Positions 9,795 through 14,291 of a stretch of 35,384 nt of DNA are shown here, one piece after another (position 1 is the first letter of the stretch; every line of letters starts with the position of its first letter). Origin of the DNA: Actinomycetota bacterium (GTDB lineage: Bacteria; Actinomycetota; Thermoleophilia; Gaiellales; Gaiellaceae); assembly GCA_005883965.1 (NCBI GenBank), contig VAWL01000135.1, positions 1 through 35,384 on the forward strand, given 5' to 3'. The notes under the pieces are model-generated. The model made no database searches and had not been told where the DNA came from. It saw only the letters and a program-made list of their open reading frames with translations. The position numbers and the translations under genes are program-made.

Positions 9795-11393
9795 CTACGG
9801 GACGAGCGCGACGTCTCTCGTCACCGGCGCGACGCGCTCGCCGAACAGGCGGTGACTGCCGCGGAAGAGGGTCAGCGTGCCGGCGGTCAGCGACGAGGTC
9901 GCGACCAGACCGCGGTCGACCGCGAGGTTGAAGGAACCGGGCGCCGTCGGCATCGTCCGCACGAGCTTGTGGGTGCGCCAGTCGTAGACGCGGAGGACGC
10001 CGTCGTTCCCACTCGTCACGTAGGCGTAGCGGCCGTAGCGCGCGAGCCCCGAGGCGTCGTCGAAGCGGACATGAGCCGGCGCCGTCCCCGCAGGGAGGGT
10101 TGCCACCGGCCGGCGGGTGCGCGCGTTGAAGACCGTCAGCGTCGACCGGTCGTCGTAGGTCACCCAGAGGTAACGGCCGTCGGGCGTGAAGGCCGCATCG
10201 TGCGCCAGTCCGTGGGGATCGACGTGGCCGATCAGGCGCGGCCGGTCGATCACGTGCGTGTCGACGAGCGAGATCGAGCGAGCCCGTTCGCCGAGCACGA
10301 CCCAGAGCCGGCGCTGGTCCGGGCTGAACGCCATGTGATGTGCGCCGTAGCCGACGAAGATCCGGCGGACGACTCGGTGGAGGATCACGTCGAGCTGCCC
10401 GCGGGCGTCGTCGGTCACGTAGACGTAGTCGCCCTGAGGGGCGAAGGCGGCGATGTGCGGGGAGCCGAGCCCGTGGATGACCCGGATGACTTTGAGCGTG
10501 TCCGTGTTAATCAGCGTGACCGCACCCGTCTGCGTGCTCACGGCTGCCGCCTCGCCCGCGTAGGCCTCGACGTTCTCCGGGTCGGCGGGCAGCGTCCACC
10601 AGCGGACGACGTGGCCCGTCGTCGCGTCCACTGCGAGCAGCCGGTTCTCCGACTCGACGGTCACCAGCGCGATCGGCCTCGACGTCGCGTGGAACGTCGG
10701 CTTCGGCAGGCTCTGCGCGAGTGCGAGGACGGCCCAGGCGTGCCGGATCGCGGTCGCCGCGGAGATCTTTCCGGCCCGGAACTCGACCACGAAGTGCGGC
10801 CCGGCCGGGAAGTGCTTCCGCTCCCAGCGCGTGGCTGCGCCCGGCGGCGCGGGCACGCGCTGGTAGCGCAGACCGGTCAGGCGCGCGTAGCGCTTCAGCA
10901 CCGCGACGTGCGGGTCCGAGCCGTAGACCTCGTCGAGCGGCTGGTGGTACCAGATCGTCAGCGCGGGCTTGATCCGCAGGATGAAGTCGCGCATCGCCCG
11001 GTTCTCGGGCTCCGACATCGGCCGTGGCCCGGAGTAGTAGCCGTCCCAGGGCACGCCGTTGTGCTTCCACGCGACGGGCCAGTTGCGGTTCAGGTCGACG
11101 CCGTGCGCGTTCTGCCGCGTGTTCGCCGCGACGCCGTCCGGGTTCGCCTCCGGGACGAGCCAGAGGTGAACGCCGGGCGGCAGCGGCATCGTGCGCAGCC
11201 GCCGGATCACGGCGAGCCCCGCCGTCTCGTTCCCGTGGATGACGCCGACGACAAGCGTTGCCGGCGCCGAGGGGTCACCGCGCTCGTAGGCGACGATCGC
11301 CCTGCCCTTGACCGAGTGGCCCACGACCGTCCGCGGCGCCGCAGCCGCCACGCCGGTGGCGACGAGCGCCGCGAGGATCAGCCCGCGCAGCAC
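9795..11393 (-). CDS. Secreted M14-family (MpaA-like) metallocarboxypeptidase fused to a C-terminal YVTN/YncE-like beta-propeller
   Basis: Signal peptide VLRGLILAALVATGVAAAAP; zinc motif VIHGNETAG; PDGVAANTRQNAHGVDLNRNWP; catalytic-Glu context FVVEFRAG; then repeated propeller strands (IALVTVESENRLLAVDATTGHVVRWW, DYVYVTDDARGQLDVI, RYLWVTYDDRSTLTVFNARTRRPVATLPAG). Single ORF; GTG start overlaps the upstream gene. Confidence 0.85.
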   Translation of the reverse strand: MLRGLILAALVATGVAAAAPRTVVGHSVKGRAIVAYERGDPSAPATLVVGVIHGNETAGLAVIRRLRTMPLPPGVHLWLVPEANPDGVAANTRQNAHGVDLNRNWPVAWKHNGVPWDGYYSGPRPMSEPENRAMRDFILRIKPALTIWYHQPLDEVYGSDPHVAVLKRYARLTGLRYQRVPAPPGAATRWERKHFPAGPHFVVEFRAGKISAATAIRHAWAVLALAQSLPKPTFHATSRPIALVTVESENRLLAVDATTGHVVRWWTLPADPENVEAYAGEAAAVSTQTGAVTLINTDTLKVIRVIHGLGSPHIAAFAPQGDYVYVTDDARGQLDVILHRVVRRIFVGYGAHHMAFSPDQRRLWVVLGERARSISLVDTHVIDRPRLIGHVDPHGLAHDAAFTPDGRYLWVTYDDRSTLTVFNARTRRPVATLPAGTAPAHVRFDDASGLARYGRYAYVTSGNDGVLRVYDWRTHKLVRTMPTAPGSFNLAVDRGLVATSSLTAGTLTLFRGSHRLFGERVAPVTRDVALVP

Positions 11394-12301
11394 CAGCCCT
11401 CGATCCGGGGGAAGCCGCCGAACTGGGACGAGACCCGCGATCCCCCGACGATATGTCTCGGCGGCCCCGGCCGGACGAACACCCACTGGTCGGCGGTCGG
11501 CCAGGTCACGAGGAGCCAGCGCCCGTCCGGCGAGCGGACGACCTGGCCGAACGTGCCGGTGCCGCGGAAGACCACGCGGCGGTGGCTGACTACTTCGCTC
11601 AGACCCGCACGGCGGCGGATCGCGGGCCCGGCGGGGCGGAGCGTCGTATGCCGGAACGATCCCGAAAGGAGGTCGTAGGCCACGAGGCCGTGGCCGTCCG
11701 AGTAGACGATCACGCGGCCCGGCCGCCAGACCGGAGGAACCGCCGCCGCCGGGCCGATTGTGCGGTCGCCGGTCCCGTCGCCGGCGACGACGTGGAGCTT
11801 CCCTCCCGAGAGGTACGCGATCCGCGTGTCGGCCCGCGTCCCCGTCCACGCGGGGAAGCGCGGCGAGGGGCGCGGCAGCGTCCAGCGCACATTCCCCTTC
11901 GGGTCGAGCGCAACGAGCTCGCTTGGCTTGGTGGCGGCGACGAAGAGGCCGTGGGGCGACCACGCCGCGTCGCGGTAGGAGCCGAGGCGCCGGCGTGAAC
12001 CGTCCTGGTTGACGATCCAGGTGCCGCCGGGGCCGGAGACGAGCAGCCGGCCGGGCGCCGGGAGCGAGGAGAGCTCGGTCTGGGCGTGCTGGACGCCGAC
12101 GGCCTTGCGCAACGAATGGACGACCGAGCGGCCGGGCGGGCTCAGCACGGCGGCGACCGCGGCTGCGACCAGCGCGCCGGCGACGAGCGGGCGCGCGTGC
12201 CGCCGCGGCCAGGCCACCGGCTCGCGCTCGGCGTACGCGCGGCGGACGACCGCCCAGGCGCGGTCCTCGGCGGCGCGCTCCCCCGGCGCCTCGAACTTCA
12301 C
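11378..12301 (-). CDS. Single-TM protein with extracytoplasmic WD40/TolB-like beta-propeller, candidate anti-sigma/sensor partner of the ECF sigma factor
   Basis: Short cytosolic N-terminus VKFEAPGERAAEDRAWAVVRRAYAER, one TM PLVAGALVAAAVAAVLS, then propeller-like repeats; GTG start overlaps the sigma-factor stop (GTGA). Confidence 0.75.
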   Translation of the reverse strand: MKFEAPGERAAEDRAWAVVRRAYAEREPVAWPRRHARPLVAGALVAAAVAAVLSPPGRSVVHSLRKAVGVQHAQTELSSLPAPGRLLVSGPGGTWIVNQDGSRRRLGSYRDAAWSPHGLFVAATKPSELVALDPKGNVRWTLPRPSPRFPAWTGTRADTRIAYLSGGKLHVVAGDGTGDRTIGPAAAVPPVWRPGRVIVYSDGHGLVAYDLLSGSFRHTTLRPAGPAIRRRAGLSEVVSHRRVVFRGTGTFGQVVRSPDGRWLLVTWPTADQWVFVRPGPPRHIVGGSRVSSQFGGFPRIEGWCCAG

Positions 12302-13253
12302 TCCAGCCGCTCCTTGAGCGAATCGAGCCCGCGGCGCAGGCGCGAGTTGACCGTTCCGCGCGGTAGCTCGAGCAGCTCGGCGATCTCGCCCGGCGTGTAC
12401 TCGAGCAGGTAGCGCAGGACGATCACCGCTCGGTGCTCCGGCGTGAGGCGGCCGAGCTCGTGCAGGAGCTCGTCGTCGCGCTCCGGCCGGTCGGGCGCAG
12501 GCGCGTCGACGGCTTCGCCCTCGGGCCGCAGCGCGCGGGCGCGGGCCCAGTCGATCGCGCGGTTGACGACGATCCGGTGCAGCCACGGCCCGAACGGGCG
12601 GCGGCGGTCGAAGCGGTCCAGAGCCCGGACGGCGGCGATGAATCCTTCCTGCGCGATGTCCTCGGCAGCGGCCGCATCACGAACGACCAGGTAGGCCGCG
12701 CGGTACGCGGGGCCCCAGTGCGCGCGGAAGAGCGCCTCGAAATCCGCTCCAGCCGCTCCTTGAGCGAATCGAGCCCGCGGCGCAGGCGCGAGTTGACCGT
12801 TCCGCGCGGTAGCTCGAGCAGCTCGGCGATCTCGCCCGGCGTGTACTCGAGCAGGTAGCGCAGGACGATCACCGCTCGGTGCTCCGGCGTGAGGCGGCCG
12901 AGCTCGTGCAGGAGCTCGTCGTCGCGCTCCGGCCGGTCGGGCGCAGGCGCGTCGACGGCTTCGCCCTCGGGCCGCAGCGCGCGGGCGCGGGCCCAGTCGA
13001 TCGCGCGGTTGACGACGATCCGGTGCAGCCACGGCCCGAACGGGCGGCGGCGGTCGAAGCGGTCCAGAGCCCGGACGGCGGCGATGAATCCTTCCTGCGC
13101 GATGTCCTCGGCAGCGGCCGCATCACGAACGACCAGGTAGGCCGCGCGGTACGCGGGGCCCCAGTGCGCGCGGAAGAGCGCCTCGAAATCCGTTTGAGAG
13201 CCTGCCTGGGCCCGCCGCACCCAGGCCCGCTCGTCGCGGCCGGAGCCCGCCAT
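12298..13253 (-). CDS. ECF-type RNA polymerase sigma factor, disrupted by an internal 446-bp tandem duplication
   Basis: MAGSGRDERAWVRRAQAGSQTDFEALFRAHWGPAYRAAYLVVRDAAAAEDIAQEGFIAAVRAL (sigma-2) and LTPEHRAVIVLRYLLEYTPGEIAELLELPRGTVNSRLRRGLDSLKERLE (sigma-4); the first copy reads into a frame-shifted second copy, which ends with the native stop. Confidence 0.85.
12301..13192. repeat. Perfect 446-bp tandem duplication (12301-12746 and 12747-13192)
   Basis: The two copies read identically base for base. The ORF track shows the same 83-aa ORF at 12443 and 12889, exactly 446 bp apart. Confidence 0.97.
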
Positions 13254-13266
13254 GGCGTGCCGACTA

Positions 13267-13292
13267 TACGAGCGCAGGCGTCGAGGAGGTCC
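13267..13292 (-). promoter_or_regulatory. Candidate ECF-sigma autoregulated promoter (-35 GGACC, -10 CGTA, 17-nt spacer)
   Basis: Minus strand GATGGACC-N17-CGTATA just upstream of the sigma-factor ATG at 13253. Confidence 0.5.
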
Positions 13293-13310
13293 ATCGCCGC
13301 AGATACGGAT

Positions 13311-13336
13311 GGACCCCGCCGCGAGGTCCCCGCGTA
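13311..13336 (+). promoter_or_regulatory. Candidate ECF-sigma promoter for the divergent gene (-35 GGACC, -10 CGTA, 17-nt spacer)
   Basis: Plus strand GATGGACC-N17-CGTAGTA upstream of the gene at 13363; same architecture as the minus-strand motif. Confidence 0.5.
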
Positions 13337-13362
13337 GTAAGGGCGTCGACGAAGGAGGAGCG

Positions 13363-14178
13363 ATGAGACGGGCACTGGCACTGGCGGCGATCCTTGGCTC
13401 GGTGGGCGCAGGGGTGGCCGCAGCGGATGGCGGCGGACCTGCGCCGGGGCTGGATTACGGGAACGGGATCGTGGTTCCCCCCGGACTGTGGCGGGACGTG
13501 GCTCTCTCCGACGGTCGCACGACCTTGCTGGAGTCGATCGTGATCGACACTGGAAGGGTGGAACGGACCAGCTTTCTGAAGGGCTCCCTCGGCATCCCTC
13601 TCGTCTCCTACAGCGGCCAGACCGGCGGGCTCGCACGCGACGGCTCGCGGCTCGTACTCGCGAGCTGGCCCGGCGCTCAGGCCGCGACGCGGTTCGTGGC
13701 CGTCGACCCGGTCGACTTCCGTGTCCAGGAGCGCGTGAAGCTGCGCGGGCGCTTTGCCTTCGACGCGCTCTCCCCGAACGGGTCGGTGATGTATCTGATC
13801 CAGTATCTCGGCAACCCGGGCGCGGTCGCGCAGACCTACGCTGTTCGCGCCTTCGACTGGCGCACACGGAAGCTCGTCCCCGGCGCGGTCGTCGACAGGC
13901 GCGAGCCCGACGAGAAGATGACAGGCCTCCCGATGAGGCGAGTCGGGACGCCGACCGGCTGGGCCTACACCGTCTACCAGCGCCCCGGCAAGCGGCCGTT
14001 CGTGCACGCGCTCGACACGGTCCACCGGCGCGCCTTCTGCATCGACCTTCCGTGGCGGAACTCGGACACTTGGATCCCGAGGGTCAAGATGCGCGTGCGC
14101 GGCGACATGCTCGAGCTGCGCCGCGACGGCCACACGATCGCCCGCATGGACAGGAAGACGCTGAAGGTCGAGTCCTAA
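13363..14178 (+). CDS. Secreted protein with beta-propeller-like repeats, unknown function
   Basis: RBS ggaggag; signal peptide MRRALALAAILGSVGAGVAAADG; WD/YVTN-like strands (VLASWPGAQAATRFVAVDPVDFRVQERVKLRG, MYLIQYLGNPGAVAQTYAVRAFDWRTRKLVPG). Confidence 0.75.
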   Translation: MRRALALAAILGSVGAGVAAADGGGPAPGLDYGNGIVVPPGLWRDVALSDGRTTLLESIVIDTGRVERTSFLKGSLGIPLVSYSGQTGGLARDGSRLVLASWPGAQAATRFVAVDPVDFRVQERVKLRGRFAFDALSPNGSVMYLIQYLGNPGAVAQTYAVRAFDWRTRKLVPGAVVDRREPDEKMTGLPMRRVGTPTGWAYTVYQRPGKRPFVHALDTVHRRAFCIDLPWRNSDTWIPRVKMRVRGDMLELRRDGHTIARMDRKTLKVES

Positions 14179-14186
14179 GAGGCCAA

Positions 14187-14283
14187 GGGGACAGTCACAG
14201 GGACAGTCACAGGGACAGTCACAGGGACAGTCACAGGGACAGTCACAGGGACAGTCACAGGGACAGTCACAGGGACTGTCCCC
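14187..14283. repeat. Seven tandem copies of the 12-mer GGGACAGTCACA closed by GGGACTGTCCCC
   Basis: Units at 14188, 14200, 14212, 14224, 14236, 14248 and 14260, then gggactgtcccc 14272-14283; outer ends ggggacagtc (14187-14196) and gactgtcccc (14274-14283) are perfect inverted repeats. Confidence 0.97.
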
Positions 14284-14291
14284 GGTAGCTC

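Follow-up and report, generated by a model that had tools for sequence, protein, structure and literature searches.

Conserved GGACC-N17-CGTA sites as the very probable control region of an autoregulated ECF sigma factor and a small exported-protein regulon

The window (the whole stretch of DNA analysed, 35,384 nucleotides, from a Gaiellaceae genome) contains a gene for an ECF sigma factor and, facing away from it, a gene for a predicted exported protein. The short region that separates them carries repeated promoter-like boxes. Which transcripts begin here, which sigma factor reads the boxes, and how far does the same promoter type extend beyond this locus?

Promoter sites between the sigma gene and the divergent gene

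The features on which the argument depends are as follows.

9795..11393, minus strand: gene for an M14 carboxypeptidase-like domain (Pfam Peptidase_M14) fused to a beta-propeller; its start overlaps the 3' end of the anti-sigma gene
11378..12301, minus strand: gene for a putative anti-sigma; its GTG start overlaps the sigma stop
12301..12746, no strand assigned: exact tandem copy, inside the sigma gene, of 12747-13192 (446 bp)
12744..13253, minus strand: gene for an ECF sigma factor with sigma2 and sigma4, 169-170 aa before the duplication disturbs the frame
13267..13292, minus strand: P1, sigma-proximal ECF-type promoter; GGACC (-35) at 13292-13288, N17, CGTA (-10) at 13270-13267; position kept in sigma orthologs
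13304..13329, minus strand: P2, sigma-distal tandem promoter; GGACC at 13329-13325, CGTA at 13307-13304; 37 bp upstream of P1
13311..13336, plus strand: Pdiv, promoter of the divergent exported-protein gene; GGACC at 13311-13315, N17, CGTA at 13333-13336
13363..14178, plus strand: divergent gene, 271 aa; signal-peptide-like N-terminus, predicted beta-propeller; AAGGAGGAG precedes it

A first-pass annotation of this DNA had placed two GGACC-N17-CGTA sites here, and both are present, with a spacing of 17 in each and coordinates exact to the base. Read directly, P1 is GATGGACC-TCCTCGACGCCTGCGCT-CGTA on the minus strand and Pdiv is GATGGACC-CCGCCGCGAGGTCCCCG-CGTA on the plus strand. The single promoter proposed on the sigma side matches P1, but a pattern scan of the window shows that it is one of two in tandem, the second being P2 (GGACCTCGCGGCGGGGTCCATCCGTA, minus strand), which had been overlooked and which overlaps Pdiv. 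P2 and Pdiv have 19 bp in common on opposite strands, each -35 box lying inside the spacer of the other, and this interlocking probably makes their simultaneous occupancy impossible. The -35 form also needs correction: it had been given as GATGGACC, while the motif consensus is GGACCT. The 'GAT' that precedes GGACC at both P1 and Pdiv is no general component of the motif, and the T at -1 is found chiefly at the proximal sigma site, the base just before GGACC being T in 76% at P1 versus 10% at P2 in the orthologs with sites.

If CGTA is taken to occupy -13 to -10, as in Tt-RpoE1, transcription from P1 would start near 13257, leaving a leader of ~4 nt before the sigma ATG at 13253, and transcription from P2 would start near 13294. 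The earlier suggestion that the sigma mRNA is nearly leaderless agrees, by position, with the spacing across orthologs: the distance from the proximal CGTA to the sigma start codon is 10 or 13 nt in 33 of 45 site-bearing sequences (44 orthologs plus the window; 13 nt in 22, 10 nt in 11). The divergent gene is not leaderless, having a short predicted leader of ~17 nt, from a Pdiv start near 13346, that contains AAGGAGGAG, with the Shine-Dalgarno-like AAGGAGG.

The exact pattern GGACC-N17-CGTA occurs 10 times on both strands of the genome (2,300,816 bases), compared with 6 occurrences of a reversed-pattern control, and 3 of the 10 fall within the 70-bp interval 13267-13336. At this density the probability of three or more sites in 70 bp is ~5e-12. 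It should be noted that this figure is post hoc, and conservation in relatives is therefore the better test.

Conservation upstream of sigma orthologs

We searched 151 genomes with the sigma protein (P0001); 61 matched at 1e-35 or better, and from these came 49 ortholog loci (Thermoleophilia, Gaiellales-type soil MAGs); the relatives with names are Gaiellaceae, Thermoleophilia and Solirubrobacterales MAGs. Within 150 nt upstream of the sigma genes, all patterns of a 5-mer, a gap and a 4-mer were then counted without a preset motif, with 20 dinucleotide-shuffled sets as the comparison. GGACC-17-CGTA was the top gapped pattern, present in 44/49 sigma upstreams and absent as an exact site from the remaining 5/49, against 5/49 for the best of any pattern in the shuffles. 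Conservation of the boxes in orthologous intergenic regions, on which the first-pass annotation had staked its proposal, is thus observed. Because the orthologs share ancestry, 44/49 overstates their independence, a concern that is eased by the many genera represented and by the non-adjacent loci described below. The motif is absent upstream of those distant ECF genes that were checked in other phyla (33-39% identity), and it is therefore specific to this sigma group; among the Solirubrobacterales orthologs checked, single sites are kept in some cases only. One contig labelled as a Burkholderiales MAG (L229) carries the sigma gene with its promoters, probably through a binning error.

The arrangement of the sites recurs as well. 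At least two sense sites are found in 29/49 sigma orthologs. Of 30 tandem pairs, 17 are spaced at exactly 36 bp, seven at 37-39 bp and five at 27-28 bp. An antisense site is present in 16/49; in most cases it either interlocks with a sense site, as in the window and six relatives, or adjoins one back-to-back across a gap of 1-4 bp, as in seven relatives. Both compact layouts, the interlocked divergent pair of 33-36 bp and the back-to-back pair with 1-4 bp between its members, are seen repeatedly in different genera. Judged by these sequences, the sigma promoter would usually be a tandem pair ~36 bp apart, with the distal copy often interlocked or back-to-back with a divergent promoter.

The sigma locus and its candidate regulon

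The sigma protein (~170 aa) matches Pfam Sigma70_r2 and Sigma70_r4_2 above the cut-off, has no sigma1 or sigma3, and scores 91.7 bits against the NCBIfam sigma70-ECF model (cut-off 42.9). The spacing of about 16-17 nt between the autoregulation-type boxes that precede its gene would likewise place it among ECF (group IV) factors. The SigE family of Streptomyces (TIGR02983) is its top NCBIfam match, and membership was rejected at 105 bits, below the cut-off of 141.55. The 446-bp direct duplication covers most of the sigma gene, leaves the promoters untouched and shifts the reading frame from about residue 170 onward, so that the assembled ORF, 12423-13253, encodes 276 aa. A relative in the same genus (G002) has a single sigma match. 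The duplication is either an assembly artefact or a recent event, probably an artefact.

Directly downstream, the product of 11378..12301 is predicted to have a short N-terminal cytoplasmic helix, one TM segment and an extracytoplasmic beta-propeller (AlphaFold pLDDT 85.6; Foldseek matches are beta-propellers including TolB). This is the layout of Tt-TolB, in which a short N-terminal part, a TM segment and a propeller are encoded directly downstream of sigma, and by architecture and position we regard the product as a putative membrane anti-sigma. The M14-propeller fusion gene is a probable third member of the operon. On the other side, the divergent protein has no Pfam or NCBIfam match and is modelled with confidence as a propeller (AlphaFold pLDDT 87.8; Foldseek YVTN/TolB/YncE propellers). 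Its resemblance to the anti-sigma propeller is weak (hhalign probability 74) and we do not claim homology. Directly past its stop codon, 14188-14290 holds about eight head-to-tail copies of GGGACAGTCACA followed by a GGGACTGTCCCC stretch.

Homologs of the divergent gene were found in 51/151 genomes. GGACC-17-CGTA was again the top pattern upstream of them, in 16/36 upstreams, most of the 36 having no sigma gene in the flank examined; at about half of the 36 the exact site is missing. Since the same motif leads at both the sigma upstreams (44/49) and the divergent-homolog upstreams (16/36), the earlier prediction that 13363..14178 belongs to the sigma regulon is supported. Some genomes with site-bearing divergent-gene homologs yielded only a GGACG-type paralog sigma, perhaps as a result of MAG incompleteness.

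In the genome scan that the first-pass annotation had suggested, four of the seven sites outside the interval (L068, L069, L070, L077) stand 8-10 nt before the start codon of an ORF whose N-terminus resembles a signal peptide, and the L077 ORF has a propeller-type SGL match. At sites with a spacing other than 17 this exported-ORF context was seen in 0/24 examined (Fisher p = 0.001 versus N17), and the degenerate GGACT-N17-CGTA gave two sites in the own genome, neither of which is followed by an exported ORF. In relatives with the sigma, leaving out the sigma and divergent loci, 16/39 GGACCT-N16-CGTA sites have a start codon 5-15 nt downstream followed by a hydrophobic N-terminus, compared with 1/20 sites in genomes where no sigma ortholog was found (p = 0.005). 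Of the additional sites in sigma-containing genomes, roughly half are not followed by an exported ORF and may have arisen by chance. Two types of candidate product, recognised by eye, recur in the relatives: exported proteins of the RRxFL type and a family sharing a VPAGW motif. In several relatives (L142, L151, L152, L157, L159) the RRxFL (Tat-like) N-terminus begins with a start codon 8-9 nt past CGTA. From such distances, several regulon members would be expected to have leaderless or nearly leaderless mRNAs.

A proposed circuit and its alternatives

The sites, their conservation and the targets in the own genome lead us to conclude that 13267-13336 is very probably the control region of an autoregulated operon for an ECF sigma and a beta-propeller anti-sigma, together with a small exported-protein regulon. 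This reading draws on sites, conservation, spacing, gene context and domain content as observed, and on folds as predicted. An extracytoplasmic signal would act on the propeller of the membrane-anchored anti-sigma, releasing the sigma factor that it would otherwise sequester. RNA polymerase with the released sigma would recognise GGACC(T)-N17-CGTA and fire P1, P2, Pdiv and the other sites. The nearly leaderless P1 and P2, ~37 bp upstream, would drive the sigma-anti-sigma-(M14/propeller) operon, so that sigma would amplify its own gene, while Pdiv would drive the divergent exported beta-propeller gene, P2 and Pdiv presumably excluding one another. The small set switched on by sigma would be exported proteins, largely beta-propeller or uncharacterised, several of them from leaderless or nearly leaderless mRNAs.

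Could the boxes be a chance likeness of two short GC-rich strings? The pattern has nine fixed bases only, and with spacings of 15-19 allowed, a shuffle of the window is expected to contain 0.9 such sites. The motif is nevertheless kept in 44/49 orthologs where shuffles reached 5 at most, its position and spacing are fixed, and its gene context is specific to N17; chance is rejected on the genome count and the ortholog conservation, and we give it next to no credence. A second reading accepts the conservation and takes the GGACC/GGTCC repeats as operator half-sites of a dimeric transcription factor, which would make this a repressor-operator region; a near-palindrome, GGACC-N6..9-GGTCC, does exist in the window and six relatives. 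The conserved unit, however, is GGACC-N17-CGTA on one strand at fixed spacing, it stands as single non-palindromic copies at regulon genes and at most sigma upstreams, and the palindrome varies in spacing from 6 to 9 and is missing where the divergent promoter is back-to-back. These ortholog site layouts do not support an operator palindrome, no transcription-factor gene was seen adjoining the region, and we consider this reading very improbable.

It is somewhat less improbable, if still unlikely, that a different ECF sigma reads these ECF promoters and has the adjacent sigma gene as a target. The genome has 36 first-look sigma-70-family candidates, and some site-bearing genomes yielded only a more distant sigma. 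Against this, autoregulation is a common arrangement among ECF sigma factors, and the motif follows this ortholog group: the nearest paralogs (46-52% identity) have GGACG-17-CGTA before their own gene in 11/13 (L098-L109), together with a changed recognition-helix residue, the sigma4 helix reading GTVNSRLRR in this group versus GTVNSRLAR in the paralogs. This pairing of GGACC/GGACG with Arg/Ala would tie the motif to sigma identity, as a correlation across two groups and not as proof. In our own alignment the Arg/Ala position corresponds to F175 of E. coli sigma E, whose R171, S172 and R176 contact the -35 according to PMC3397946. The two systems have in common the GGA-C core (GGAACTT is the -35 of E. 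coli RpoE) and the recognition-helix layout G-T-V-x-S-R. They differ in the fourth -35 base (A there, C here), in the residues that we align with R171 and F175 (here Asn and Arg), and in their unrelated anti-sigmas.

One further feature lies between the tandem promoters. By automatic site assignment, 31/31 sequences with P2 and 1/8 without it have an RTG that overlaps the P1 GGACC at its start. L084, L132 and L138, counted among the eight through misassignment, are 27-bp-spaced pairs that do contain RTG, and the corrected counts are 34/34 versus 0/5. RTG lies 8-11 nt past the P2 CGTA in most sequences, resembling the leaderless starts of the regulon, and belongs to a different reading frame from the sigma start codon. 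Conceivably a leaderless P2 mRNA begins at this RTG, out of frame, and limits sigma synthesis or feeds the anti-sigma, with the Pdiv interlock coupling the brake to the divergent gene; we regard this as doubtful. Where the tandem promoters are 27 bp apart, RTG lies within the P2 -10 box and is kept even so; it cannot be a start there, and an extension of the P1 -35 would explain it at least equally well. That the orthologs are not independent also weighs against an RTG start. A coding upstream ORF from P2 was considered and rejected: the open length (typically ~142 aa) is equal in orthologs without RTG, leaving no coding evidence for it.

An autoregulated ECF sigma with a divergent target is an ordinary circuit of a known kind, and what is unusual is the compact layout. 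One close parallel is Tt-RpoE1/Tt-TolB of Thermoanaerobacter tengcongensis, an ECF sigma with an immediately downstream anti-sigma. Tt-TolB is an experimentally shown anti-sigma whose short N-terminal part binds sigma and is followed by a single TM segment and a TolB-type domain at the C-terminus (PMC3397946), whereas the role assigned to its counterpart here follows from architecture and position. As proposed here, Tt-RpoE1 transcribes its own gene, and its -10 is likewise GC-rich (GTC at -12 to -10); its -35 is tGTTAC in contrast to GGACC, and no tandem or interlocked divergent promoter appears in the part of that account consulted (PMC3397946). Streptomyces coelicolor sigR is another: this actinobacterial ECF sigma gene has the promoters sigRp1 and sigRp2, and at least one of the two is autoregulated (PMC4921905). 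Only its upstream promoter is SigR-dependent, and from the resulting transcript an unstable isoform is made that is extended in frame at its N-terminus (PMC4921905); here, the same ECF motif is present in both promoters at a distance of ~36 bp, and the conserved RTG between the two is not in the sigma reading frame, so that a two-isoform system of the sigR type does not apply.

Among publications found for GGACC with ECF, none describes such a promoter type by title and abstract, and the literature searches found no regulon study of this Thermoleophilia ECF group. Thermoleophilia are little-studied soil actinobacteria represented here almost only by MAGs, and GGACCT-N16-CGTA offers a concrete promoter code and a candidate target list for one of their ECF groups. 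The GGACC/GGACG paralog pair, with its Arg/Ala difference, would be a natural case of promoter insulation, and the recurring compact layouts bear on mutually exclusive promoter occupancy.
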